Part shown: piece by piece, positions 32,943 through 45,181 of the stretch
Layout: each line of letters begins with the position of its first letter
How positions within the stretch are numbered: the stretch's first letter is position 1
Program-made: the position numbers and the translations under genes
Notes under the pieces: model-generated
Told to the model about the DNA's origin: nothing
Seen by the model: the letters and a program-made list of their open reading frames with translations, nothing else
Database searches by the model: none
Assembly: GCF_023716465.1 (NCBI RefSeq)
Contig: NZ_CP092415.1
Span: 2,147,501 to 2,211,500 of the forward strand
DNA length: 64,000 nucleotides
DNA from: Flagellimonas marinaquae
GTDB taxonomy: Bacteria > Bacteroidota > Bacteroidia > Flavobacteriales > Flavobacteriaceae
Reading direction: 5' to 3'

Positions 32943-33323
32943 TTAGTAGTTCTGCTGTATGTAGGCAATCTTCAATTGGAACATTTCCGCCATTTTAGTA
33001 GCTCTGAATTTGGCTTCTTGTGCTTTCTCGCCTGAAAAATTATCATCGATGGTCTCAAAAAACAATTGTTTCCAACGATCAAAATGCTCGGCTTTGACCG
33101 GCAGTTGTGCATGTGGGGCAAAGGGACTGCCGTGATAGGTGTGCTCCTGCAGTAAAACGGTTTGCCAAAACCGATACATTTTTTCCAAGTGTAATGGCCA
33201 ATTATCTTTTATTGCTCTATTAAAAATATCGGCAAGTAAAGGGTCCCTGCGTACTTTGTCATAAAAAAGGTCTACCAGTAGTTTAATTTCTTCTATAGTT
33301 GTGATCTCTTTTCTTTCAGTCAT
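32943..33323 (-). CDS. Group III truncated haemoglobin
   Basis: A 126-residue globin of the trHbIII group. FYDKVRRDPLLADIFNRAI and KMYRFWQTVLLQEHTYHGSPF are the group markers, and the proximal-His region is LPVKAEHFDRWKQLFFETI. It is probably involved in NO or oxygen chemistry. Last gene of a minus-strand NO-defence group rrf2-ric-hemerythrin-membrane protein-trHb, 24 bp after the small membrane protein gene. Confidence 0.92.
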   Translation of the reverse strand: MTERKEITTIEEIKLLVDLFYDKVRRDPLLADIFNRAIKDNWPLHLEKMYRFWQTVLLQEHTYHGSPFAPHAQLPVKAEHFDRWKQLFFETIDDNFSGEKAQEAKFRATKMAEMFQLKIAYIQQNY

Positions 33324-33347: not shown

Positions 33348-33698
33348 TTAAAATAAGTGGGCGAGTATCACCAAAGTGCTAAAAACAACACTTAGGATCA
33401 ATAAATTAAAGGTAGCCTTTGCTTTTAATTGTGCCAAAACGGCTCCATTGAAAGCCATGCAGAATATGGTCACAAAGAAGAGTATGATCATTTTTAGCAG
33501 CATAGTCGTTTCTCCCATTAATAAAATCATCGCTGCACCAGAACCCAGGCAACTTTGTCCGATAATTGCTATGGTAGAATATCCAAGTTGTTTCTTTTTA
33601 AACTCCAGATACATCTGTTGGTATAGATTCCTTGGATTTTTTGTCTTGAATTTAGAGCCAGAACTGGTCATGGGTATTGTCGTTAAATTTTTCGCCAT
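33348..33698 (-). CDS. Small membrane protein of unknown function in the NO-defence cluster
   Basis: A 116-residue protein: about 40 polar residues, then three likely helices (YSTIAIIGQSCLGSGAAMILL, MLLKMIILFFVTIFCMAFNGAVLA and TFNLLILSVVFSTLVILAHLF). It overlaps the 3' end of the hemerythrin gene by 47 bases if the first ATG is used; MTSSGS ten codons later shortens the overlap. I recognise no named family. Position between hemerythrin and truncated haemoglobin suggests a link to NO or oxygen stress. Confidence 0.65.
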   Translation of the reverse strand: MAKNLTTIPMTSSGSKFKTKNPRNLYQQMYLEFKKKQLGYSTIAIIGQSCLGSGAAMILLMGETTMLLKMIILFFVTIFCMAFNGAVLAQLKAKATFNLLILSVVFSTLVILAHLF

Positions 33699-34113
33699 TA
33701 TGTTGTTTATTGATCAGGTCCAGTTGGGCAGAGTCGGCAACCTCTTGTATGTGATTGAAAAGTTGCCGTTCTTCGAACCTAATATGTTCCTCAAGTTTTT
33801 TTTCGATTTGTTCCAATGTGTTCACGTCCAATTTTGAAGAGGTGAACCAATTTTTTAATATATCATGGTCGCTAAGTGCTTTTTGTACCCAAGGATGTCC
33901 ATTTCCAATAATGGGGAAGAGGTATGTTTCTTCCATATGGAAATGAGGGGCCAAATGGTTTTGATAGAACCAATCCATATATTTTTTGATTCTTTCTGGT
34001 GCAATATTTTTCGACAGCCCTGTTCTGATCTTCCAGGATAAGAGCAACCCATGATGATGCTCACGGCTCACTCCCTGTAGGGCTTTGTGTCGTTTTATTG
34101 GTTTAAATCCCAT
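33652..34113 (-). CDS. Hemerythrin-like domain protein
   Basis: A 153-residue four-helix protein with di-iron ligands spread as SREHHHGLLLSW, HFHMEETYLFP, LSDHDILK and HIRFEERQLFNHIQ. Probably binds O2, NO or stores iron in the cytoplasm. Its start directly abuts the stop of ric (34114/34113), so translation is likely coupled. It may work with Ric in nitrosative stress. Confidence 0.88.
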   Translation of the reverse strand: MGFKPIKRHKALQGVSREHHHGLLLSWKIRTGLSKNIAPERIKKYMDWFYQNHLAPHFHMEETYLFPIIGNGHPWVQKALSDHDILKNWFTSSKLDVNTLEQIEKKLEEHIRFEERQLFNHIQEVADSAQLDLINKQHNGEKFNDNTHDQFWL

Positions 34114-34845
34114 TTAATTATGGTTGAGTAAGTGGGCTTCGAGCAACTCTGCTTTTGGAAAAAGAATATTGTTTTCCAAATGGATGTGACGATGTAGATC
34201 GTCCTCAAATTCTTGTAATAATGCGAATGCTACGCGATAGGTATTGCATGCATCCGAGGGCGGGGTATAGTCCTCGCTCAACTTAGCGATTTTTCTAAAC
34301 CTTTCCCCTTCGTTATCGTGTTCTTGCATCATGCCAGCAATGGGATTGCGTACCGAACCAAAGCGGGGAGCTTCCAAATGGGCATCGGCCTCTGGCCCGT
34401 TCACCATTTTTTTTATGTAGGGAAAAAGAACAAGTTCTTCTTTCTTCATGTGCATGGCCAACTCTCCGGCGGAAACATTGAAATGTTCGGAAATCTGGAA
34501 CAGCTCGGGGTGTCGTTCACCATGAACCTTGCAAAGTTTGGACAGATACTGTTTTAGAACCGGTATTTGTTTTTCCACATATCGATGGTGCTTTTTTTCT
34601 ATGTAATCAATTAAAAGATCTAAGGGCCAGGTTTTAAAGTTGGGTTGGTCGGTTTGGTTTGCTTCCGAAACCGCAGCGAGCTCTTCCAAAATTACTTCTA
34701 GTTGTAATCCTTTTTTTGAGGCAGCTTCGGCTAGGGTCCTGTTGCCGTTGCAACAAAAGTCGATTTTGTGGGCCTTGAATATTTCTGCGGTTCTGTAGTT
34801 GTCCACTACCATTTGTCCGATGGTTTTTTCTTTTGTTCGGGTCAT
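34114..34845 (-). CDS. ric: Iron-sulfur cluster repair di-iron protein Ric/ScdA
   Basis: A 243-residue protein from the ATG at 34845. The upstream ATG (34869) would overlap the palindromic operator at 34861-34880, which argues for the shorter form. The N-terminal ScdA_N/DUF542 domain has the DFCCNGNRTL cysteine motif. The C-terminal hemerythrin domain supplies di-iron ligands (HHRYVEKQ, HGERHPEL, MHMKKEELVLFP, EHDNEGE, HIHLENNILFP). Ric repairs Fe-S clusters damaged by NO or oxidants. It is followed without a gap by the hemerythrin gene. Confidence 0.92.
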   Translation of the reverse strand: MTRTKEKTIGQMVVDNYRTAEIFKAHKIDFCCNGNRTLAEAASKKGLQLEVILEELAAVSEANQTDQPNFKTWPLDLLIDYIEKKHHRYVEKQIPVLKQYLSKLCKVHGERHPELFQISEHFNVSAGELAMHMKKEELVLFPYIKKMVNGPEADAHLEAPRFGSVRNPIAGMMQEHDNEGERFRKIAKLSEDYTPPSDACNTYRVAFALLQEFEDDLHRHIHLENNILFPKAELLEAHLLNHN

Positions 34846-34860
34846 ATCGATTATTTTTAT

Positions 34861-34880
34861 AAAGGACAATTTTATCCTTT
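34861..34880 (-). promoter_or_regulatory. Palindromic operator before ric
   Basis: AAAGGACAATTTTATCCTTT is a 20-bp inverted repeat (AAAGGAC/ATCCTTT arms with one mismatch, 6-base spacer). It lies 16-35 bases before the ric ATG and contains a -7-like TAAAATTG on the minus strand. The same layout occurs at 44088-44107 and, degenerately, at 35372-35391. Confidence 0.65.
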
Positions 34881-34896
34881 TTTTGAATAAATTTTT

Positions 34897-35334
34897 TTAG
34901 CGTTTTAAATATGTCAATCCAACTTCCAGGCCGGTTGCAAGTTCATATAAACTGGTGCTTGTAAGCATTTTTCTGAGGTTGCTTCTAATATCAACAAATT
35001 TGTCGTGCAAGGGGCAGGGCTGGTCTGCATTACATTTCTTAAGCCCAAGGCCACAGCCTACATATATTTGGTCTCCGTCTATGGCTTTTACGATCATGCT
35101 GAGTTTAACAGAGTCCATGTCTTCCCTTTCTATTTCAAACCCCCCATTGGGACCCTTTATGGATTTTACGATGTTATTACGTGTGAGCAGTTGCAATGTT
35201 TTTGCGGTAAAGGCTACTGGTGAGTCTATTTCATCTGCAATTTCTGCAACGCTTACCCGTCTTCCTTCCAAAGACTGCAAAGCAATATACACTGCTGCTC
35301 GAATACCATACTCACAAGCTTTTGAAAACATCAT
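34897..35334 (-). CDS. Rrf2 family regulator, probably NO or Fe-S sensing
   Basis: A 145-residue winged-helix protein. The helix-turn-helix spans VSVAEIADEIDSPVAFTAKTLQLLTRNNIVKSIKGPNGGF. Three cysteines follow in C-x6-C-x5-C (Cys94, 101, 107; VGCGLGLKKCNADQPC), the pattern by which Rrf2 proteins such as NsrR and IscR hold an Fe-S cluster. The setting, directly upstream of ric, hemerythrin and truncated haemoglobin, points to an NsrR-like role. The start could be Met2. Its own promoter carries a degenerate form of the candidate operator. Confidence 0.9.
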   Translation of the reverse strand: MMFSKACEYGIRAAVYIALQSLEGRRVSVAEIADEIDSPVAFTAKTLQLLTRNNIVKSIKGPNGGFEIEREDMDSVKLSMIVKAIDGDQIYVGCGLGLKKCNADQPCPLHDKFVDIRSNLRKMLTSTSLYELATGLEVGLTYLKR

Positions 35335-35350
35335 GGATAATTTTATTGTA

Positions 35351-35391
35351 CAAAGATAGTATTAAAAATATTTAGGACAAAAAAGTCTTTT
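35351..35391 (-). promoter_or_regulatory. rrf2 promoter with degenerate palindrome
   Basis: On the minus strand TATCTTTG (35351-35358) is a perfect TAnnTTTG box, and a TTTTTTG lies 19 bp upstream as the -33. The -33 overlaps TTAGGACAAAAAAGTCTTTT (35372-35391), whose AGGAC-N6-GTCTT arms match the ric operator design. This suggests self-repression by Rrf2. Confidence 0.55.
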
Positions 35392-35419
35392 ATATATAAT
35401 TTCACGTGTAATCCATAAC

Positions 35420-36625
35420 TCAAACTTTACGGTAATTTTGATAGCTCAGTATTGCCAGTGCAAAAAGAATGAGTGTTGAGCCACTGAACAATACTGTTGT
35501 ATATTCTCTAAAAACCGGCCATTTGATCCAGGCAGCAAGCCCTTTATAAAAAATCAGCAGTTCAGTAAGCATAAAACCAACAAGGTACATTCCCATGGAT
35601 AAGTTGGACAACCTGATTAATTTGAAATAATCGCTTAGAAATAAAATTCCTAAACTTATTACCCCTAAAAATGTTAGGTGCAAGTAACCAATGGTCAGGT
35701 CCAGATAAGTTGCGATCAATTGGGCAAAATAGGGCAGGGCGGATATAATTTGCAATGTGATTTTTATCGTTAACAAAATCACTACCGTCTTGAGCAGTAG
35801 CTTTTGTTTTCCTGTTAATTTTAGTTTGAAGACAGTGCTTTTGATCATACTCCAGAAGTGGACAAAAGCGAACCATTGTAACATGGCCCCCAATCCCGCC
35901 AAAATATTGAGCCAAATGGATGCATTGGTCCAAAGTGCGGACAACAGAAAGCTCAACACTATGCTTAGGTTGATACTGATGAAGAAAATGGAGAAGGTTT
36001 TTTGGTGCAATTCCAGGTCCAATCGTTCCAATAGGTACATAAACATTCCCAGTATCGCAAGAACCATCCAGCCGTTATATTGAAAATGTAGATAGAAATA
36101 GATGGACAACCGGTACCAGACCGATTCAGGACCTACAGTGCTCATTATGGCACCTAGGGCCCATGGCCCTATACTGGAAATTATCATATAGATCAATGCA
36201 GCTTTTACTATTCTCAAGCTTTTTCTTCTTGTATGGACAGGGTCAATGTTTTTCCAAAAATGATAGGTGTAGATATAGGACAAAACCAAAAAGAGGGTGG
36301 AAAAAACTATGGAGGGAACGGCGTACCCTTGAAATGGAAAAGTCAGCAGCATACCAATGAGTGTGCCTTGGGTGCCCCAAAATAAACATTGGTACTTTTT
36401 TTTTGAGAAAACTTTTCGGTCTACAAAAAGGTAGTGGAGCATTGTGGTCAATGCAACATAGACCCAACCTAAAAGAGCAATGTGCGAGTGCCCATGTACC
36501 ATATACTTATAATTGAACCCGAACGGAAAAACGGCGTAGGAGCGGAGCAATAAGCCCAACAAGGCGGCAATCCCAAAATATAAAATTGCTATTTGTATAT
36601 GGCGGTTATATTTGTTTGCCTTCAT
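35420..36625 (-). CDS. Polytopic membrane protein of the nos cluster, possibly haem-binding
   Basis: A 401-residue protein with about twelve hydrophobic helices. Helix 2 carries YMVHGHSHIALLGWVY, and a central helix has YLHFQYNGWMVLAIL; histidines in such membrane positions resemble haem ligands of heme-copper oxidase subunit I and NnrS-like proteins, though no standard family signature is complete. It is the last gene after nosY (22 bp gap). The idea that it passes electrons or handles NO is inference. Similar unnamed genes are, from memory, found in other Bacteroidota nos clusters. Confidence 0.6.
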   Translation of the reverse strand: MKANKYNRHIQIAILYFGIAALLGLLLRSYAVFPFGFNYKYMVHGHSHIALLGWVYVALTTMLHYLFVDRKVFSKKKYQCLFWGTQGTLIGMLLTFPFQGYAVPSIVFSTLFLVLSYIYTYHFWKNIDPVHTRRKSLRIVKAALIYMIISSIGPWALGAIMSTVGPESVWYRLSIYFYLHFQYNGWMVLAILGMFMYLLERLDLELHQKTFSIFFISINLSIVLSFLLSALWTNASIWLNILAGLGAMLQWFAFVHFWSMIKSTVFKLKLTGKQKLLLKTVVILLTIKITLQIISALPYFAQLIATYLDLTIGYLHLTFLGVISLGILFLSDYFKLIRLSNLSMGMYLVGFMLTELLIFYKGLAAWIKWPVFREYTTVLFSGSTLILFALAILSYQNYRKV

Positions 36626-36646
36626 GCATTGCTATTGTGGTCCGTG

Positions 36647-37429
36647 TTAAAAATCCTTTCTTTTGGTTTTGTACCGTATTCCCAAAATGGGCAGAATGGT
36701 CCAAACGAGAAGTATGGCCATAGAGACCAAGAACCCGATATTTGTACCGAAAAAGCTTTTAAAAATGGCACCGGTGTATCCCAAAAGCGCAGAAATGTCC
36801 AATTTTAGGAGAATCAAAATTCGTGAAAGATCTATGGGGTTGAGTGCTGTGGCCACTAACGAAAAGTTATCCAAAGGATATTCTTCAAACATAATAAGGG
36901 ACATAAGAAACAGGCCATCGTAGACTACGGCCAAAAAGAGCCATAGCAACACGGCATACCCAAATCCTTTTATCTTGTTTTCGTTGCTTATGGCAATCAC
37001 AAAGGACAAGCCCACAAATATAAAGGTTAAAAATGCTCCCGTAACCAATAAAAGGGTGAAGTCGAATATGGCATTGCTCCGTAACAACCCGTACAATAAG
37101 AAGGGGATGCCCAGTCCCAATACCAAACTGAGGGTCAAAGAACCGGCCACACCAAAATATTGTCCCATAAATATGGAACTCCGTTTTATGGGCTGTGCCA
37201 ATAAGAGTTCGGTAAATTCGCGTGAATTGTAATAGTACATTACTCCAAAAATGGTACCTATTAACGGGATGAGAACAATAATAACATTCATTAATGTGAT
37301 CACTGCTTTGGATACATCGTTGTTAAGGAACAGCAAAACAAATCCGAGTGAAAGGTAAAAAAGAAAATAAACATAGCTCCAACGGCTACGGATAAGATCG
37401 TAAAAACTATATTTTAAAATTTTAAGCAT
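36647..37429 (-). CDS. nosY: NosY, ABC transporter permease for NosZ maturation
   Basis: A 260-residue permease with six hydrophobic helices (ABC-2 type). It begins MLKILKYSFYDLIRSRWSYVYFLFYLSLGF and has FGVMYYYNSREFTELLLAQPIKRSSIFMGQ, a NosY-typical block. With NosF and NosD it serves copper-site assembly of nitrous oxide reductase. Its start overlaps the end of nosF by 8 bases. Confidence 0.92.
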   Translation of the reverse strand: MLKILKYSFYDLIRSRWSYVYFLFYLSLGFVLLFLNNDVSKAVITLMNVIIVLIPLIGTIFGVMYYYNSREFTELLLAQPIKRSSIFMGQYFGVAGSLTLSLVLGLGIPFLLYGLLRSNAIFDFTLLLVTGAFLTFIFVGLSFVIAISNENKIKGFGYAVLLWLFLAVVYDGLFLMSLIMFEEYPLDNFSLVATALNPIDLSRILILLKLDISALLGYTGAIFKSFFGTNIGFLVSMAILLVWTILPILGIRYKTKRKDF

Positions 37430-38135
37430 GGCTGTCCGAAGTTGTTAGGGCCGCAATGGCATGTTCAAACGTGTTTTGGCGGGTCTGTTCCATCAATGTG
37501 TCGATACTACCTTTAAAATAGATTTCCCCCTCTAGCAGGTACAAAATCTCATCGGCAATTTCTTCAACAAATTGCATAATATGCGATGTGATCAAAATGG
37601 TTTTGCCCTGTTCTTTTTCCTTTTTTATAATTTTTTTTAGACTGATAAGGGCTTTGGGTTCCAATCCTGTTGTTGGTTCATCCAAAATAATAAGGGGACT
37701 ATCGAACATAAAGGTCAGAACAAGGTTTACTTTTTGTTTGGTTCCCCCGGAAAGTGTTGAAAGTTTTTTGTCCATAAAAGCTTCCAGGCCAAATTGTTCG
37801 ATCAAGGCTTGCTCACTGCTTGGACTGTTTCTTAGGTCCTTGATCATGCCGATCAATTCCTTTACCCTAATGTTGGGCGGAAAATTGGCAATTTGGGGGA
37901 GGTAGTCTATTTTTTTGCGGTATTTCCAATCTTTTTTAATGGTTTTGTCCAGTACCTTAATACTGCCCTTATCGGGGATTACCATGCCCAGTATACTTTT
38001 GATCAATGTGGTTTTTCCTGAACCATTGGGACCTAAAATAGCATAGATGCGCCCTTCGTCCACAGAGACATCAACTCCTTTTAGAACTGTATTTTTTCCG
38101 AATTTTTTATGTAGGTTTTTTATAGCAATGGTCAT
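37422..38135 (-). CDS. nosF: NosF, ABC transporter ATPase for NosZ maturation
   Basis: A 237-residue ABC ATPase with Walker A GPNGSGKTT (about residue 34-42), the signature LSGGTKQKV, Walker B LIILDEPTTGLEP and the switch His in TSHIM. It powers the NosDFY complex. It overlaps nosD by 4 bases (ATGA) and nosY by 8, so the three are translationally coupled. Confidence 0.95.
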   Translation of the reverse strand: MTIAIKNLHKKFGKNTVLKGVDVSVDEGRIYAILGPNGSGKTTLIKSILGMVIPDKGSIKVLDKTIKKDWKYRKKIDYLPQIANFPPNIRVKELIGMIKDLRNSPSSEQALIEQFGLEAFMDKKLSTLSGGTKQKVNLVLTFMFDSPLIILDEPTTGLEPKALISLKKIIKKEKEQGKTILITSHIMQFVEEIADEILYLLEGEIYFKGSIDTLMEQTRQNTFEHAIAALTTSDSHA

Positions 38136-39382
38136 GGTCGTTTGTGCATTAGTGGTTGTGGATCTTTTAGGTTGTCCGGAGTAAATACCGGAGATACTCT
38201 TTCCGAAAAGTCAATAATATCCATAAAAAGGCTTCGCAAAAGAACAATGGTCTCCGGAGTTCGGTTTACTACATAGGAGAATAATTTTACAGGTCGGTAA
38301 GGAACGTCGCCTATACCATCTTTGTCCAGGTCATATCCGGTGTAGCCACTCCAAAAATTTCCTTCGAACACATTGTCGTTCAATTTACTGTTATAAGAAA
38401 TATCAAAGGAGTTGTAAAGGAAGTTGTTACTCTTGAAACTATTAGTGTAACAGGCGCCGATTACCCGAATGGCCCATCCATTGCCAATAAAATCATTGTT
38501 GGTATAGTCAATGCGATTGGACCCCTCTATATTTATGCCGATGGTATTTTCCTCAAAGGTGTTTCCACTGATTTCTGCATCATTGATTTCCTTTAAAAGC
38601 ATACCATAGGCCGCGGTGCCCCAATTTTTTCGGAACGTATTGTTCCTCATGGTAATAAATTTGGAAAACATCACTGCCACTCCTGCACCGTTGTTTTCGA
38701 AAGTATTGTTTGCGTAAATATCGTTGTCGGAAAACATAAAATGCAAACCGTAGCGAAGGTTGTCCATGCTAACATTGTTGGTAATGGTAATGTGATCGGA
38801 GAATTCCAGATAGATACCGTCCCGGGTGCCTTGTACATGGTTTTTTAGTACTTCCACATCGGTGGAATACCAAAGTTGAATCCCGTTCCCGGAATTATAC
38901 TCGTCCACGGCTTCACCGATAATGCGGTTGTGGTACACTTTGCCATGGGAAGACTTTTCCAGATAGATACCAAAAAACAATTCCTCCAAAACCAAATGTT
39001 GGAGTAAGAAATTCTTGCTCTGGACCACCCGTATGGCGGCATTGTCCTTGGTATAACTAACACCAACATTGATGATGAACAGTCCATCCAAGGTTACATT
39101 GTCGGAGGTTATCCTAAAAATTTCACCTTTCTTTTCGCCGTCCACCACAGGGTAATCGATCCCTTTGATGACCAAAGGCTTGTCCACCAATATATCGAAC
39201 TCCTTGTAAGTCCCTTTTTGAACCAATAAGGTGTCTTGGGCACTGGCCATTTGAATGGTTTTTTTAATGGAGTTATGCTCACAGGTAGGGCAGATCGTCC
39301 AGCTTTTTGCCCAGACCATTTGTCCAAAAACGAGCAGGATGATCCATATTAAATTGGTGCGATGTGGATTGTTGAGTGCCAT
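38132..39382 (-). CDS. nosD: NosD, periplasmic copper-handling beta-helix protein
   Basis: A 416-residue exported protein (signal peptide ending near MVWAKS). It is made of right-handed beta-helix CASH repeats rich in N-N turns (ITNNVSMDNLRYGLHFMFSDND, MRNNTFRKNWGTAAYGMLLKE), the NosD pattern, and ends with SGYTGYDLDKDGIGDVPYRP, the conserved NosD tail. It delivers copper to NosZ with NosL and the NosFY transporter. Confidence 0.95.
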   Translation of the reverse strand: MALNNPHRTNLIWIILLVFGQMVWAKSWTICPTCEHNSIKKTIQMASAQDTLLVQKGTYKEFDILVDKPLVIKGIDYPVVDGEKKGEIFRITSDNVTLDGLFIINVGVSYTKDNAAIRVVQSKNFLLQHLVLEELFFGIYLEKSSHGKVYHNRIIGEAVDEYNSGNGIQLWYSTDVEVLKNHVQGTRDGIYLEFSDHITITNNVSMDNLRYGLHFMFSDNDIYANNTFENNGAGVAVMFSKFITMRNNTFRKNWGTAAYGMLLKEINDAEISGNTFEENTIGINIEGSNRIDYTNNDFIGNGWAIRVIGACYTNSFKSNNFLYNSFDISYNSKLNDNVFEGNFWSGYTGYDLDKDGIGDVPYRPVKLFSYVVNRTPETIVLLRSLFMDIIDFSERVSPVFTPDNLKDPQPLMHKRP

Positions 39383-39437
39383 GGTGTCTTTCAGATCAAA
39401 GAATTTTGATTTTAATTTCTTGAATGGGTACCCGGTT

Positions 39438-39737
39438 TTATCTGATAATCAAAAATTTGGCATCTTCCTTGGCAAGAACCCAATGTTCCACTTCTTTGGA
39501 AAAACTAAAATGTTGTTGCTCTTTTAAGTTAACGGTTTGATTTTGTATGTGAAAATTTATGTTGCCTTCCAAAACTATCAAATGGGCATCCTTGGGGGAA
39601 ACGTGCTTTGGGAACATCGCATTTTTAGCCAAGCTGATGCTCAATATTTCCAAGGTATTGTTCTTGACCAATTGCTCTATTTGAAGGTCGTTGAATGGTT
39701 GCTGGGCAATGGTATTGTCTATATCGATCATATACAT
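39438..39737 (-). CDS. Small cupin-like protein in the nos operon
   Basis: A 99-residue single cupin barrel (LIVLEGNINFHIQNQTVNLKEQQHFSFSKEVEHWVLAKEDAKFLII), with only partial metal motifs: His in PKHVSP and VEHWVL. No signal peptide. It lies 18 bp after nosL and 55 bp before nosD on the same strand. Role unknown; redox or ligand sensing, or metal handling, would fit the setting. Confidence 0.65.
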   Translation of the reverse strand: MYMIDIDNTIAQQPFNDLQIEQLVKNNTLEILSISLAKNAMFPKHVSPKDAHLIVLEGNINFHIQNQTVNLKEQQHFSFSKEVEHWVLAKEDAKFLIIR

Positions 39738-39754
39738 TGGTTTGTGATTTTTGG

Positions 39755-40195
39755 TTAGTCTTGGTATTGTTTTTTTAATTCGTTCCAGTTAAGTAGTTCC
39801 CCACCATTGGCGTCCAAGGTGTTCTTGGCCGCTTGTTCTTCGGAAAATGCACTTAAAAATGCACCCATGGGGCTGGGAATATTTTTGCTGATCAAATATG
39901 TAGCTTTGGTGGCATCTGTAAGTTCCCCGGGTCGATCAAAATCATTGGCCAGGAATAGGGCGACTTCATTTTCATCGAACTCCTTTAATTGGTTCATCAT
40001 ACATTCCACGGCATCAAAATTGTACACCTTTCCTTTTTTGGTTACCATTTGTGCAGCATGTTGCTTGTCCACGATTGTCATGCTACAATAGTGGCAGCCC
40101 ACATGGCCATAATCAATTGGTTTAGGTCCGATGGAACAACCGTACATACAGCCGAGTAGTACTAAAAATATGGAAATAGAAGGTTTCATACTCAA
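39755..40195 (-). CDS. nosL: NosL, copper-binding lipoprotein
   Basis: A 146-residue lipoprotein (LLGCMYGCS, lipobox near Cys16-20). The NosL motif GCHYCSMTI (CxxCxM, copper(I) site) is followed by FDAVECMM. NosL passes copper to NosD and the NosZ site. The start may be Met3. It follows the 203-residue membrane protein by 4 bp. Confidence 0.93.
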   Translation of the reverse strand: MSMKPSISIFLVLLGCMYGCSIGPKPIDYGHVGCHYCSMTIVDKQHAAQMVTKKGKVYNFDAVECMMNQLKEFDENEVALFLANDFDRPGELTDATKATYLISKNIPSPMGAFLSAFSEEQAAKNTLDANGGELLNWNELKKQYQD

Positions 40196-40199
40196 GGTT

Positions 40200-40811
40200 T
40201 TATTGTGTTTTAGTGCTTTTCCAACCTAGATAGCCTGCTGTTAGGGTTAGCATCATTCCTACGAACATGAGCCAGGCACCGGTAGATGGCAAAGAGGTTA
40301 CATCAAAATTCAACATTTTTACATGTCCCAACAATGGGGGCTTATAGGTCATTGGGGTTCCATCAGGGTTGGTCAACTTCATAATGGCATTAGGATCTAA
40401 GTTGGTGCCGTAATCGACCAACCATTCGTTAAAATCGTACATGCCCAATATTCCGAGGATGGACATCAAAATAAACCAGCCAAAAAACCATTGGTAGCTT
40501 ACTTTTTGGAGATAGCCAAGAATACCGATTAGAACTCCAAAGGCGACCATAAACCCTATGATCATAGGGAATGTGCCGAACTCCCACATATCCTCAGGCT
40601 TGGGCAATGTGTGCATACCTATATAATGGTTGAGACCATCTATATTCTGGATGTCGAATTCGTTGACACCTCGTAGTCCACTAATATGGATGTTCAATCC
40701 AAGTGGGTCTGGATATTGTGGAGCTCCCAACATAATGTTCCATAAAGGGAAGATGTACAGCCCCAATAAGAACAATGGGCCAAGGATCATTAAAATACTT
40801 GCCTTTTTCAT
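40200..40811 (-). CDS. Membrane protein of clade II nos clusters, unnamed
   Basis: A 203-residue protein with an N-terminal anchor (ILMILGPLFLLGLYIFPLWNI), a periplasmic part (GLRGVNEFDIQNIDGLNHYIGM), two central helices, a loop with YDFNEWLVDYGTNLDPNA, and a last helix (GAWLMFVGMMLTLTAGYLGW). Uncharacterised proteins of this type sit next to nosZ in Bacteroidota clusters (from memory). The N-H-Y and acidic stretches may be metal-binding; unproven. It is separated from nosZ by a terminator. Confidence 0.7.
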   Translation of the reverse strand: MKKASILMILGPLFLLGLYIFPLWNIMLGAPQYPDPLGLNIHISGLRGVNEFDIQNIDGLNHYIGMHTLPKPEDMWEFGTFPMIIGFMVAFGVLIGILGYLQKVSYQWFFGWFILMSILGILGMYDFNEWLVDYGTNLDPNAIMKLTNPDGTPMTYKPPLLGHVKMLNFDVTSLPSTGAWLMFVGMMLTLTAGYLGWKSTKTQ

Positions 40812-40870
40812 TTTATAAGATTTATAGGTTACAAACTGATTGTGGCTTTTTGGAGGTGGTTGATGTTCAA

Positions 40871-40910
40871 TTTGTAAAAAAGCGGGCAGGTCTAGGACAC
40901 GGCCCGCTTT
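40871..40910 (-). terminator. Terminator after nosZ, inside the nos cluster
   Basis: On the minus strand, AAAGCGGGC/GCCCGCTTT arms (40902-40910 and 40879-40887) with a 14-base loop run into TTTTTTA. It lies 24 bp after the nosZ stop and should reduce read-through to the maturation genes, giving more nosZ than nosDFY mRNA. Confidence 0.8.
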
Positions 40911-40933
40911 GATCGTTGGTGGGTCAATCCGAA

Positions 40934-42886
40934 TTATTCACCAAGAGACCATTTTAACTCTATATTGGAATTGGCAGGGGAAACCCTAACATACCCTTGC
41001 ATTTCTTGGTGCAATGCAGAACAGAAATCTGTACAATAGAACGGCCATACACCGACCTGCTTGGGTTCCCAGACCGATGTTTTGGTCTGGCCGGGCATGA
41101 TCAGTAACTCTGAGGTATTTTGACCCAAGATGGTAAATCCGTGCGGTACATCGAAATCCTGCTCATGATTGGTAATGTGGAAATATACTTTGTCACCTAC
41201 TTTGATACCCTCTATATTGTCCGGTGTAAAGTGGCTACGGATCATGGACATGTAAACATGTACCTCATTGCCGTCACGTACAACTTTTGAGCCGTCTGCC
41301 GTGGTTACCGCATAAGGGTGCTTGTTCTCGTCCAAGCGATATATTTTTTTGGACTTGGGGGCCAAAAGTTCAGCTGGGCACCCTGCTGCGTAATGGGGTT
41401 CTCCGTGTGTTGGAAAATCGTAGATCAATTCCATTTTGTCCCCGGAAATATCGTACAACTGTGCTGAGTGTTCCATTTCTGGGCCGGTGGGCAAGTAGCG
41501 ATCTTTGGTGATCTTGTTCATGGCCACTACATATTTGCCAAAGGGTTTTCTGGAGTTGCCTCCAGGAATCATAAGGTGCCCTACAGAGTAGTAAGTAGGT
41601 TTTCTATCTATTACTTCCCAAGTTCCCAGCTTCCATTTTACCACCTCGGAAGAAATAAAGAAGGTGGTATAGGCGTTGCCTTTGCCATCGAATTCGGTAT
41701 GCAATGGGCCAAGGCCTCCGCTCTTTACTTGTCCGGCCATAATATCCTCGAATTTAAGGATTGGGATACCATAGGCTTCGCCGTCGAATTTTTCACCCTC
41801 GATTGCGGCCAGCATTTTGTCGAATGAATGAACGGTTAAATCTGCGGATAGTTTCCCATTTCCAATTATATACTCACCGGTTGGGTCAACATCGCATCCA
41901 TGAGGCGATTTTGGTGTTGGCAAAAAGTAAACGGCTCCTGGAACTTTGGTAGGATCTACGGTAAGCACTTCTTTTTTCATGGTAGTGGTCCCGGTATGTG
42001 TCTCCTCCTCGTACACGTTATGTGCATAATTGGCCGGTATTTTGGTGCCGCCGCCATTGTTTACATATTCTTCAATTTTCTTCCAGTTAATGGCTGCAAT
42101 AAAATCTTTGTCGTTTTGGGAGGCATTCACCTCTAAAAGGGAGTTGGCCTCTTCTGTGTTGTAAGTGGTAAAGAAGAACCATCCATGGGATTTACCTCTA
42201 CCCGGATGAGAAAGATCATAATTGAAACCAGGCATCAATAGTTGGAATTTAATGTCCATCTCGCCGGTTTCTGGAGCAACACTGATAAACGTCAGGGCAC
42301 CTTTAAAGTTTCCTTTATATTCATTTATGGGCATGTCGCGCTGGGGTACGGGAACTGCAAAACGTGTACCGGCAACAACGTACTCGGTATTTTCTGTGAT
42401 AAAGGAAGAACTGTGGTTCCCTGCACTGTTGGGCACTTCAATAATTTCCTCCGTTTCAAAAGTGCTTAGACTGATACGGGCTATACGTGGGGTGTTGTTG
42501 CCATTGATAAATATCCAGCGACCGTCCAATTCGCCATTGGTCTGGGAGATATCTGGGTGGTGGGCATCGTCCCAAGGAACAAACCCATGAGATGTATTTA
42601 GCATGGGCTTCGTCTCTTCCGAGTATCCATACCCGGAGGTGGGAAATTGGGAGAATACTGGAATCTCCTTGAACATCCTGCCCGAAGGCAACCCGTAAAC
42701 GGTAAGATTTCCACTATATCCGCCGGAGAGGAAGGCATAGTACTCGTCCTGCTCGCCAGGAGCAACATATACTTTTTCGGCAGCGCTCGATGAGAGGGCG
42801 CCATTGGAACTCTGATTTTGCTGACCACATGAGATCAACATAAGCGCCGATCCAAGGGTGATGGTTAAATAACGATATATTTTCAT
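40934..42886 (-). CDS. nosZ: Nitrous oxide reductase, clade II
   Basis: A 650-residue multicopper enzyme reducing N2O to N2, the last step of denitrification. The N-terminal seven-bladed propeller carries CuZ histidines, beginning with DDAHHPD (His109-110). The C-terminal cupredoxin CuA site is complete: CTDFCSALHQEM gives Cys618, Cys622, His626, Met629. The signal is Sec-type with a lipobox (LMLISC, Cys20) rather than Tat, as in clade II. It lies 32 bp after the fasciclin gene and is followed by a terminator. Confidence 0.97.
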   Translation of the reverse strand: MKIYRYLTITLGSALMLISCGQQNQSSNGALSSSAAEKVYVAPGEQDEYYAFLSGGYSGNLTVYGLPSGRMFKEIPVFSQFPTSGYGYSEETKPMLNTSHGFVPWDDAHHPDISQTNGELDGRWIFINGNNTPRIARISLSTFETEEIIEVPNSAGNHSSSFITENTEYVVAGTRFAVPVPQRDMPINEYKGNFKGALTFISVAPETGEMDIKFQLLMPGFNYDLSHPGRGKSHGWFFFTTYNTEEANSLLEVNASQNDKDFIAAINWKKIEEYVNNGGGTKIPANYAHNVYEEETHTGTTTMKKEVLTVDPTKVPGAVYFLPTPKSPHGCDVDPTGEYIIGNGKLSADLTVHSFDKMLAAIEGEKFDGEAYGIPILKFEDIMAGQVKSGGLGPLHTEFDGKGNAYTTFFISSEVVKWKLGTWEVIDRKPTYYSVGHLMIPGGNSRKPFGKYVVAMNKITKDRYLPTGPEMEHSAQLYDISGDKMELIYDFPTHGEPHYAAGCPAELLAPKSKKIYRLDENKHPYAVTTADGSKVVRDGNEVHVYMSMIRSHFTPDNIEGIKVGDKVYFHITNHEQDFDVPHGFTILGQNTSELLIMPGQTKTSVWEPKQVGVWPFYCTDFCSALHQEMQGYVRVSPANSNIELKWSLGE

Positions 42887-42918
42887 TGTGTTAGGGTTTA
42901 TTTTTTGGATTTATTGAG

Positions 42919-43500
42919 CTATTGACTTGGAGGCAGGATTACTTTGTCCACCACATGGACAATTCCGTTTCCTGCCGGTACGCTACCAATTATTTTAGCG
43001 CCACCGATAAAAACATCATCCCCTTTTACCTCCACAGCTACATTTTGATTGTTCGCCTGCCCAAGTTTTTTAAACTTTTTTAGAAAATCCTTGGAGTAGT
43101 TGCCAGGGGTAACGTGATACTTCAAAATATTGGCCAGTGCATCTTTGTTTTCAGGTTTTAGTAAATCTTCTACGGTACCTTCGGGCAATGCATCGAAGGC
43201 GGCATTGGTTGGAGCAAATACCATTAAAGGTCCTGCATTTACCAATGCATTTTCCAAACTTGCGGCCTGTACCGCGGCCACTAAAGTGGTGTGGTCTTCC
43301 GAGCCTATTGCAATTTGAAGTACATTGGGCGTTGATCCATCATCTTCGATAAAAGCTTGTCCCTTGTTACTTTCCACAACAGTCGTGGATTCTTCTGGCT
43401 CTGCTGCCGTCGTAGTATTTTGGGACTTTTCCTTACATCCCATACTGAGTGCCAGTAGTAAAGAAAATCCCAGTGCAGTGAGTTTAATGGTTGATTTCAT
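42919..43500 (-). CDS. Fasciclin-domain lipoprotein
   Basis: A 193-residue lipoprotein (LALSMGC, Cys22) with one FAS1 domain from about residue 60 to 190: DHTTLVAAVQAASLENAL, GPLMVFAPTNAAFDALPEGTVEDLL, LKYHVTPG and GNGIVHVVDKVILPP. FAS1 domains mediate adhesion or protein contacts. Placed between cytochrome c and nosZ with gaps of 6 and 32 bp, it may scaffold the periplasmic N2O-reducing complex; that role is inference. Confidence 0.88.
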   Translation of the reverse strand: MKSTIKLTALGFSLLLALSMGCKEKSQNTTTAAEPEESTTVVESNKGQAFIEDDGSTPNVLQIAIGSEDHTTLVAAVQAASLENALVNAGPLMVFAPTNAAFDALPEGTVEDLLKPENKDALANILKYHVTPGNYSKDFLKKFKKLGQANNQNVAVEVKGDDVFIGGAKIIGSVPAGNGIVHVVDKVILPPSQ

Positions 43501-43506
43501 ATAGCT

Positions 43507-44016
43507 TTAATTTAAAGTTCTAAAGTACTCTAGGATGGCCCTTGCCTGTTCTTCCGTTAATCCTTGGTTGGACATAGGAGAACCGTTGAATTCTTGTAAA
43601 AGGTCACGGGCCAATGGGTCTTTCTGGACCATTTCCTGAGGGTTCAAGATCATGTTCATTACCCATTCCGGGGTTCTTCTTTCCAATATTCCGTTGGGTG
43701 CCGGACCAATGAATTTTTTGCCGATCCTGTGGCATGCCAGGCACATTTGGTCATAAACTTCCTTTCCTTTGGTAGCCATCGCTTGGTCAATATCTGCAGG
43801 TAACTCCACGGAAGTTACAGGACCAACGCCCTTGGTGCTCATATCTACCCTTTCGGAAGCTTTTACGGTGTTGGTGGTAGTTTCAACTGGTTGCTCCGTA
43901 GTTGTTTTTTTTCTCTGGACGCTAAATCCTTCTTCTTTTTGTTCTTTTTCCTTGCCGCCACAGCCAACAACCGCTAGGGCAAAGAATAGGGCCATTCCTT
44001 TCAGTAAATTATTCAT
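43507..44016 (-). CDS. c-type cytochrome lipoprotein, likely electron donor to NosZ
   Basis: A 169-residue lipoprotein (VVGCGG, Cys19) with one class I haem c domain: CLACH at about residue 93-97, the Lys-rich KKFIGPAPNGI after it, and a Met ligand in GSPMSNQG. A long charged linker precedes it. As first gene of the nos operon it probably passes electrons from the quinol chain to NosZ. Confidence 0.92.
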   Translation of the reverse strand: MNNLLKGMALFFALAVVGCGGKEKEQKEEGFSVQRKKTTTEQPVETTTNTVKASERVDMSTKGVGPVTSVELPADIDQAMATKGKEVYDQMCLACHRIGKKFIGPAPNGILERRTPEWVMNMILNPQEMVQKDPLARDLLQEFNGSPMSNQGLTEEQARAILEYFRTLN

Positions 44017-44035
44017 GTATAGGTTTTTTAAAATT

Positions 44036-44107
44036 TTGTCTCAAAAGTAAATAGGCAATTCAATTCAAAACATGATTTTAATCATAAAAAGGATATTAAT
44101 GTCCTTT
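44036..44107 (-). promoter_or_regulatory. nos operon promoter with FNR-like box and NO-type palindrome
   Basis: On the minus strand TACTTTTG (44042-44049) is the -7 box and TTTTG lies 16 bp upstream. TGAT-N4-ATCA (within 44072-44085, arms ATGATT/AATCAT) fits the FNR/CRP core, and its centre falls about 42 bases before the predicted start near 44036, the classic activator position. AAAGGATATTAATGTCCTTT (44088-44107) is centred near -61. Confidence 0.65.
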
Positions 44108-44326: not shown

Positions 44327-45181
44327 ATGACTCGAGATTTTATAGACATCAACGATTTTACCATTTTGGTCGAAGAGGCAACGAGTGATACATTGATTGT
44401 GGACACTTGCCACTTTGATGAGCCAGTGGTCTCGGTCGCTTTTTATGGCTCCGGAAATGTAGATCTTAATGTAAAGTATGGGGAGAGAACCAAGACATAC
44501 AGCCATACCAAAGGGCTTGCATTATCCTTTTATGCTGATTCCAATGTTGAATTTGAGCATACGGTTTCCGCACAAAGACCATTAAAGTGTATTTTAATTG
44601 CGACCGCTTTGCGCAACCTTGAGAATTTGCCCAATGAAGAAGGGGAAATCTTTACTTCGCTTTTAAACGAACTCGTGAATCCATCCGATCATTATGTGGA
44701 AGGCCCTCGCTTTTTTATGACGCCGGAGATGGATCGTATTGTGAAATCCGTTTTCGATATGAAGTACCATGGAAAAACCAAAATGATGTTTTTTAGGAGC
44801 CAAATGACGGTTTTGTTGTCTCATTTTTTTGGGCAACTGGCCAGTCTGCAAACCGAAAAGATAAATACCACGGAACGTGAAAAACTGTATAGGGCCAAAG
44901 AAATTTTAATCAACAATTTGGACAGCCCGCCATCACTTTCCGAGATTTCACGACAAATTGGCCTGAACAGTTACAACCTTAAAAAGAATTTTAAAGAACT
45001 TTTTGGTGTGCCGGTTTTTAAGTATCTGCAAAACGAGCGTCTAAAAACTGCCCATAAGTTGATCAGTAACCATGAGGCCACTGTGCAGGAGGCGGCATGG
45101 CATGTTGGATACGATAGCTTAAGTTCTTTTTCCAATGCCTTTGAGAAAAAGTTCGGTTACCGCCCTAGTCAGATCAAGTAA
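44327..45181 (+). CDS. AraC family transcriptional regulator
   Basis: A 284-residue regulator, counted from the ATG at 44327 (MTRDFIDINDF); an in-frame ATG at 44237 gives 314 residues, but the extra part looks non-coding. The C-terminal ~100 residues hold two helix-turn-helix units (SLSEISRQIGLNSYNLKKNFKELFGVPVFKYL and TVQEAAWHVGYDSLSSFSNAFEKKFGYRPSQ). The N-terminal part is the less conserved sensor. It is divergent from the nos operon and upstream of the DUF5367-DUF1772-NmrA genes, which it likely controls. Confidence 0.9.
   Translation: MTRDFIDINDFTILVEEATSDTLIVDTCHFDEPVVSVAFYGSGNVDLNVKYGERTKTYSHTKGLALSFYADSNVEFEHTVSAQRPLKCILIATALRNLENLPNEEGEIFTSLLNELVNPSDHYVEGPRFFMTPEMDRIVKSVFDMKYHGKTKMMFFRSQMTVLLSHFFGQLASLQTEKINTTEREKLYRAKEILINNLDSPPSLSEISRQIGLNSYNLKKNFKELFGVPVFKYLQNERLKTAHKLISNHEATVQEAAWHVGYDSLSSFSNAFEKKFGYRPSQIK

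Follow-up and report, generated by a model that had tools for sequence, protein, structure and literature searches.

A conserved palindrome is the very probable docking site of an adjacent Rrf2 regulator and may help control nitrous-oxide breathing in Flagellimonas marinaquae

In a 64,000-nt stretch of the Flagellimonas marinaquae genome (contig NZ_CP092415.1, positions 2,147,501–2,211,500, here termed the window, whose own numbering is used throughout), the 20-bp palindrome AAAGGAY-N6-RTCCTTT was found as an exact match upstream of ric and upstream of the nos operon, and as a degenerate copy with three mismatches upstream of the gene for an Rrf2-family regulator, designated Rrf2-A, just as described in a first-pass annotation of this DNA (Table 1). 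The palindrome is very probably the docking site of the adjacent Rrf2 regulator. The best explanation, which we hold to be likely, is that all three copies are Rrf2-A operators, with nitric oxide (NO) releasing the repression of rrf2, ric and the genes downstream, as well as of nos. Rrf2-A is best read as an autoregulated repressor that responds to NO, and the palindrome may help control nitrous-oxide (N2O) breathing.

Occurrence and promoter context of the palindrome

A search of the 3.78-Mb genome retrieved the exact motif at ric and nos alone and nowhere in the reversed control. The genus set (Allomuricauda/Flagellimonas) consisted of 36 genomes, including the window genome of 3,776,802 bases; in the other 35 the exact motif was present in nine places, two at rrf2/ric (G008 and G012) and seven elsewhere, i.e., about 0.2 per genome. 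The relaxed form RRGAY-W6-RTCYY gave 14 sites in the window genome versus 7 in the control. Three of the 14 are promoter-proximal, and they are exactly the three first reported; nine of the remaining 11 are in coding sequence (one, in murG, assigned by reading) and two between convergent open reading frames (ORFs; those of at least 90 aa were used for site placement). Matching with up to three mismatches, which yielded 21 window matches versus 15.1 expected, was uninformative and was rejected as evidence.

The placement at rrf2 agrees with the earlier proposal of a site over the −33 element, with the TTG within the palindrome and 19 bp from the −7 box TATCTTTG. The proposed position near −61 at nos would fit if transcription begins just after the TACTTTTG box. 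At ric, where an overlap with a −7-like box had been suggested, TAAAATTG does lie inside the palindrome; the box is weak and unproven, and a clear TAnnTTTG was not seen at ric in the aligned congener promoters.

Conservation of the operator beside Rrf2-A

Rrf2-A (77–100% identity) is present in 19 of the 36 genus genomes; a close ric (at least 70%) is found in 17, all with Rrf2-A, and two others have ric at 42–47%. In the aligned genus promoters the palindrome recurs at rrf2, ric and nos with variable outer bases. Pattern WAARGACAWWTTKRTCCKAW, derived from the genus sites, was scanned in 15 of the 19 genomes with Rrf2-A and in 8 of the 17 without it, and matched in 11/15 and 0/8, respectively, with no match in the reversed control; it gave 18 sites in all, 17 of them at rrf2-A/ric. 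This narrower pattern has no match in the window genome itself.

At least 80 named Rrf2-A loci, 24 from the genus and 56 from outside it, were fetched by alignment of five Rrf2-A proteins. The core of the palindrome was at the expected place in 75/80 (the misses being L126, L142, L153, L178 and L181), in 74 of these 75 its first base falls between −54 and −63 relative to the rrf2 start, and in 70 of the 75 the −7 box begins 12–15 bp past the palindrome. This geometry, with the site over the −33 element and a fixed −7 spacing, fits promoter-occlusion repression and autoregulation. The part stable in relatives is GAY-N6-RTC with an A/T-rich spacer, the flanks being variable (TTCGGA..TCCGAA, AAARGA..TCCKAW; non-genus rrf2 consensus TTcGGAT-N6-GTCCgAa). 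Hence the consensus originally proposed, although exact locally, is too narrow.

A matrix was trained on 32 distinct genus sites, which had been picked by an author-chosen consensus from the aligned genus promoters and include the window's two sites, and was applied to the 56 held-out non-genus loci, with a threshold at 99% of 3,360 random segments from the same loci (true sites among them). The threshold was exceeded by 42 of the 56 rrf2-A promoters and by 11 of 39 ric promoters, in 10 of which ric directly follows rrf2-A; the other labelled promoters that passed were cyt (3/5) and tm116 (1/10). None passed for hemerythrin (0/27), nosY (0/18), nosF-like (0/26, a row that includes weak ABC-transporter matches), nosD (0/2), p203 (0/16), nosZ (0/6), fas (0/2), the 401-aa protein (0/14), cup (0/10) or nosL (0/13). 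In a symmetry test that uses no matrix, 49/56 non-genus rrf2-A promoters passed versus 61/11,200 random background segments. Symmetric covariation of the arms was considered and rejected, since an excess at position 1 (56/75 versus 34.9 expected) was accompanied by little at positions 2–4 and by a deficit at position 7 (27 versus 33.3).

In genome G018, a good operator match (G018:C1:346599-346618, L091) was observed away from rrf2, between divergent ORFs of 109 aa and 144 aa, the latter lipoprotein-like; it is a possible extra target.

Features of the Rrf2-A protein

Rrf2-A is a member of the Rrf2 superfamily, scoring 86.6 bits against PF02082 (cut-off 30) and 88.2 bits against TIGR00738 (cut-off 73.3). 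The reported C-x6-C-x5-C arrangement is indeed there, and its cysteines C94, C101 and C107 are invariant in 36 homologues. In the predicted structure (mean predicted local distance difference test score, pLDDT, 91.1; predicted template modelling score, pTM, 0.83) the three cysteines are in a loop between two helices. Rrf2-A would be a dimeric, probably iron-sulfur (Fe-S)-containing regulator of an uncharacterised Bacteroidota subfamily.

No assignment to a known equivalog was obtained from NCBIfam: with 33.6 bits Rrf2-A does not reach the NsrR cut-off (182), nor with 59.2 bits that of IscR (207.55), which is nonetheless the best-scoring curated equivalog. IscR is also the best sequence relative among solved structures (4hf2, E = 9.1e-07). 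On the contrary, there is no isc/suf gene among the annotated neighbours and, according to the alignment, Rrf2-A has A and K at the IscR positions that we take to be E43 and Q44. The helix aligning with the IscR recognition helix, a helix also in the Rrf2-A model (residues 40–52), contains the motif A-K-x-L-Q-x-L, which is common to Rrf2-A and to a paralogue, Rrf2-B (see below); operators common to both proteins would thus be possible.

Genes next to Rrf2-A and the link with NO

The next gene was defined as the next labelled gene within 900 bp, so that unlabelled ORFs can intervene (e.g., L156, L159 and L182). In the 56 non-genus loci it is a tryptophan 2,3-dioxygenase-like (TDO-like) gene in 12, nine of them from Arenibacter (e.g., L140:10542-11501), a CcoN-like haem-copper oxidase gene in 12 (e.g., L136:10484-12310), ric in 11 and a truncated globin in 10, followed by cupin (3), flavohaemoglobin (2), a convergent member of the 401-aa family (2), quinol NO reductase (1) and a member of the 116-aa family (1), with none in two loci. 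The TDO-like gene scores over the Pfam and below the NCBIfam cut-off; the CcoN-like gene scores well below the CcoN cut-off and might encode an NO reductase or oxidase of a type not yet described. In Pseudozobellia a strong site stands ahead of nirK, and in Aquimarina rrf2-A is followed by norB, with a strong site before norB; a homologue of nirK lies divergently on the opposite flank. NO is the common substrate, product or stress of ric, globin, flavohaemoglobin, NorB and nirK. By gene context, the link of the regulator with NO is therefore strong, with the TDO-like and CcoN-like neighbours unexplained by NO.

The nos palindrome and alternative explanations

The earlier proposal of the adjacent Rrf2 protein as binder in an NO regulon is well supported by the conservation across Bacteroidota, and is less secure for nos because of Rrf2-B. 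Several observations, here and among the alternatives that follow, weigh against Rrf2-A as NO-released repressor of all three sites. The interval from rrf2-A to the next labelled gene contains a palindrome that passes the symmetry test in just 29/56 non-genus loci (ric 9/11, CcoN-like 6/12, globin 4/10, TDO-like 3/12, cupin 3/3, flavohaemoglobin 2/2, NO reductase 1/1, 116-aa 1/1), one of them (L132) probably by chance, and in 14 of the 24 genus loci (ric 14/20, globin 0/3, none 0/1). Globin promoters passed the matrix in 0/32 cases; the matrix strongly penalises G in the spacer, and so may miss some of the globin, CcoN-like and hmp sites. Seven of the 56 held-out rrf2-A promoters failed the symmetry test. 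In a blind scan of 395 genomes of the order, strict TTCGGAYAWWTTTRTCCGAA matched in one genome, at the promoter of a 71% Rrf2-A orthologue with a CcoN-like gene next; the reversed control also matched once, in another genome, so that the count proves nothing and the location alone is telling. Finally, searches of the window genome brought up neither a NirK above the cut-off nor any match to the NorB cytochrome-c-like domain; NO would come from outside or from enzymes beyond these searches.

The alternative that survives best, to which we give an appreciable but less than even probability, is that only the ric and rrf2 sites belong to Rrf2-A, the nos palindrome being either a relic of the lost Rrf2-B or, along with the adjacent FNR-like box, a binding site for a different factor. 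Rrf2-B is 34–39% identical to Rrf2-A, with the same cysteine spacing in six translated copies, and is transcribed away from nos in 12 of 15 loci from congeners in which the nos start is visible. In a quick tree of 149 fragments, duplicates included, an A-rich and a B-rich clade separate, which is a rough check only. The nos palindrome occurs in 6/6 genomes having a B-like Rrf2, no Rrf2-A, and nos in the fetched stretch, so that Rrf2-A need not bind the nos site. Moreover, nos sites beside Rrf2-B show their own submotif, AAAAGAcATTTTTATCCTTT (18 loci, 5 distinct sequences), versus TTcGGATAAaTTTGTCCgAa at rrf2-A. From these comparisons the nos site was probably at first an operator of Rrf2-B.

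What speaks against a relic is the fate of the site where Rrf2-B is missing. No Rrf2-B was seen in the window genome, G012, G007 and G010 (the last two from assemblies 83% and 94% complete), nor any remnant of it in the window, and none was found in G060 and G061. Decay of this nos-linked paralogue was observed in two further genomes: in G029 a pseudogene with four stops is divergent from nos (G029:C22:23744-24136, L228), and in G059 the gene is interrupted. A neutral relic would be expected to decay, whereas the GAY-N6-RTC core is kept before nos in all eight of these genomes without an intact Rrf2-B, with an arm symmetry of 5–7/7 in six, 4/7 in G061 and 3/7 in G059. A link between the loss of Rrf2-B and a convergence of the nos site on AAAGGA was dropped, the window genome and G007 having this sequence and G012, G010 and G029 not. 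In 23 of 24 named nos promoters, many from close relatives, the palindrome was picked, always together with an FNR-like ATGAY-N4-RTCAT box at a gap of 2 bp (22 promoters) or 3 bp (one). The reference dyad for an FNR/CRP site is of the TTGAT-N4-ATCAA type, and in the window genome three domains of CRP type score above the cut-off, one of them with an internal stop.

With Rrf2-B gone from the window genome, we infer that Rrf2-A is the only close candidate left for the nos site. Take-over of the nos operator by Rrf2-A in the window lineage is considered likely, because the core is kept without Rrf2-B in the eight genomes and the two proteins share a motif in the presumed recognition helix; control of nos by Rrf2-A in the window genome itself is plausible.

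A second alternative, which we regard as unlikely, accepts repression of these sites by Rrf2-A and differs in the signal, which would be cluster supply (as for IscR), redox state or oxygen instead of NO. It would agree with the IscR score ranking ahead of that of NsrR, with the 24 of 56 next genes that are CcoN-like or TDO-like and not obviously NO genes, and with the precedent of RsrR of Streptomyces, an Rrf2 homologue which had been taken for NsrR and is redox-sensitive instead (PMC5015018). Opposed to it are the recurrent neighbours ric, globin, flavohaemoglobin, NorB and nirK, which by their generally known roles converge on NO.

As for a reading of the palindromes as RNA hairpins (attenuators or terminators), which would suit the ric copy if rrf2 and ric were co-transcribed across their gap, it was rejected for the other two on position and is highly improbable overall, since the rrf2 site covers the −33 element, the nos site lies upstream of the FNR-like and −7 boxes, both copies should thus be outside the transcript, and the stem is A/T-rich.

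Organisation of the locus

The nos operon, on the minus strand, is organised in the order cytochrome, fasciclin-domain protein, nosZ, 203-aa protein, nosL, cupin, nosD, ABC ATPase and permease candidate; the ABC ATPase scores over the Pfam cut-off, the nosY candidate below it, and the 203-aa protein has no Pfam match. By the nosZ score and the nosD/nosL neighbours it is classified as a clade II (Sec-dependent) nos operon. The minus-strand genes that follow are those for the 401-aa protein (35420-36625), rrf2, ric, the hemerythrin-domain protein, a 116-aa protein and the truncated globin. The 401-aa protein matched nothing in Pfam and NCBIfam, nnrS being an unconfirmed working label; its homologue sits between nosY and rrf2-A in the genus loci covering this stretch.

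Table 1. Positions of the palindromes, promoter elements and genes in the window.
Feature	Position	Strand	Evidence and remarks
Palindrome in the rrf2–ric gap, upstream of ric	34861..34880	-	AAAGGACAATTTTATCCTTT; ric strand AAAGGATAAAATTGTCCTTT; exact
Palindrome upstream of the nos operon	44088..44107	-	AAAGGATATTAATGTCCTTT; nos strand AAAGGACATTAATATCCTTT; exact, conserved
Predicted rrf2-A operator	35372..35391	-	TTAGGACAAAAAAGTCTTTT; rrf2 strand AAAAGACTTTTTTGTCCTAA; copy with 3 mismatches
TTG of the −33 element, inside the rrf2 palindrome	35378..35380	-	19 bp to the −7 box
−7 box TATCTTTG of rrf2-A	35351..35358	-	exactly 19 bp from the −33 TTG
Weak −7-like box TAAAATTG inside the ric palindrome, uncertain	34867..34874	-	by reading alone
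FNR/CRP-like box ATGATTAAAATCAT, 2 bp from the nos palindrome (palindrome upstream)	44072..44085	-	
−7 box TACTTTTG of the nos promoter	44042..44049	-	TACTTTTG or TACATTTG in most of the 24 named nos promoters
Rrf2-A regulator, 145 aa, C-x6-C-x5-C	34897..35334	-	PF02082, TIGR00738
ric, iron-sulfur cluster repair di-iron protein (ScdA/YtfE family)	34114..34845	-	TIGR03652, 251 bits (cut-off 204.7)
Hemerythrin-domain protein downstream of ric	33652..34113	-	PF01814; synteny in part of the loci
Truncated globin	32943..33323	-	PF01152
First nos operon gene, c-type cytochrome	43507..44016	-	PF00034; synteny
nosZ, Sec-dependent (clade II) nitrous-oxide reductase	40934..42886	-	TIGR04246, 941.8 bits (cut-off 625)
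nosL	39755-40186	-	PF05573 over Pfam cut-off
nosD	38132-39382	-	PF05048 over Pfam cut-off
AraC-type regulator divergent from nos, at the place of the congeners' Rrf2-B	44330..45181	+	PF12833

Discussion

What the comparisons show directly is the presence of the sites, how well they and their spacing are conserved, their association with rrf2-A and the NO genes nearby. The mechanism proposed here, in which binding by Rrf2-A, its cluster, NO as the signal, repression and the take-over of nos are all inferred, would be as follows. Without NO, Rrf2-A would sit on GAY-N6-RTC palindromes, over its own −33 element and in the short gap before ric, and so hold down expression of rrf2 and ric together with that of the hemerythrin and globin genes further downstream; repression would end, as in NsrR, once NO had damaged the cluster. 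At nos, bound Rrf2, 2 bp upstream of the FNR-like box, would impede the activator, or the contact it makes with RNA polymerase, and with NO present nos too could be expressed. The nos site would once have been an operator of Rrf2-B, after whose loss Rrf2-A would be the only close regulator to use it. More tentatively, and with less than even confidence, we suggest a hand-over: two repressors with overlapping operators, Rrf2-A for NO defence and Rrf2-B for N2O respiration, would be ancestral in Flavobacteriaceae; Rrf2-B would have been lost in the window lineage and several others, and Rrf2-A would have taken over the nos operator, which was retained next to the FNR-like box. NO repair and N2O reduction would then both be under one NO sensor, in a genome where no NirK or quinol NorB was found.

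The closest functional parallel is the NsrR regulon of Proteobacteria (hmp, ytfE/ric, hcp, nirK), with which the system shares an Rrf2-family regulator with clustered cysteines and ric plus NO-related targets; ytfE of E. coli is reported to be NsrR-repressed (PMC1274295, PMC9268430). Indeed, sites and gene order alone outline an NsrR-type regulon of NO genes here (ric, norB, nirK, hmp and globin). Unlike NsrR, whose operator is given as gATGyAT-N5-ATrCATc (PMC1274295), the operator predicted for Rrf2-A is GAY-N6-RTC, Rrf2-A scores far below the NsrR model cut-off, and one of the sites lies at a clade II nos operon. The NsrR operator pattern gave 10 matches in the window with up to three mismatches, versus 9.4 expected, none of them exact and one inside the ric coding sequence. 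On these tests the regulator is not NsrR, and the predicted system works like an NsrR regulon.

In sediment metagenomes, clade II nos scaffolds are enriched in Rrf2 regulators, with Flavobacteriales among the Rrf2 queries and a role described as hard to predict (PMC6264515); the available text of that study gives no operator or regulon for them, whereas here two paralogues, one near ric and one at nos, are told apart. HcpR of Bacteroides and Porphyromonas, a nitrosative-stress regulator in Bacteroidota (PMC1274295, PMC13370916), is alike in regulating NO stress in this phylum and unlike in being a haem-binding member of the CRP/FNR family with hcp as target. No Rrf2 operator or regulon for Bacteroidota was recognised in the open-licence literature searched.

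Bacteria carrying clade II nosZ, among them many Bacteroidota, constitute an important biological N2O sink. How nosZ is switched on in them is poorly known, and a concrete operator with a likely binder bears on this question; relatives with and without the second regulator, Rrf2-B, make the operator assignment directly testable. If true, an NO regulon would extend across Flavobacteriaceae and further Bacteroidota, a group for which the available text of the papers cited above describes HcpR as the regulator.

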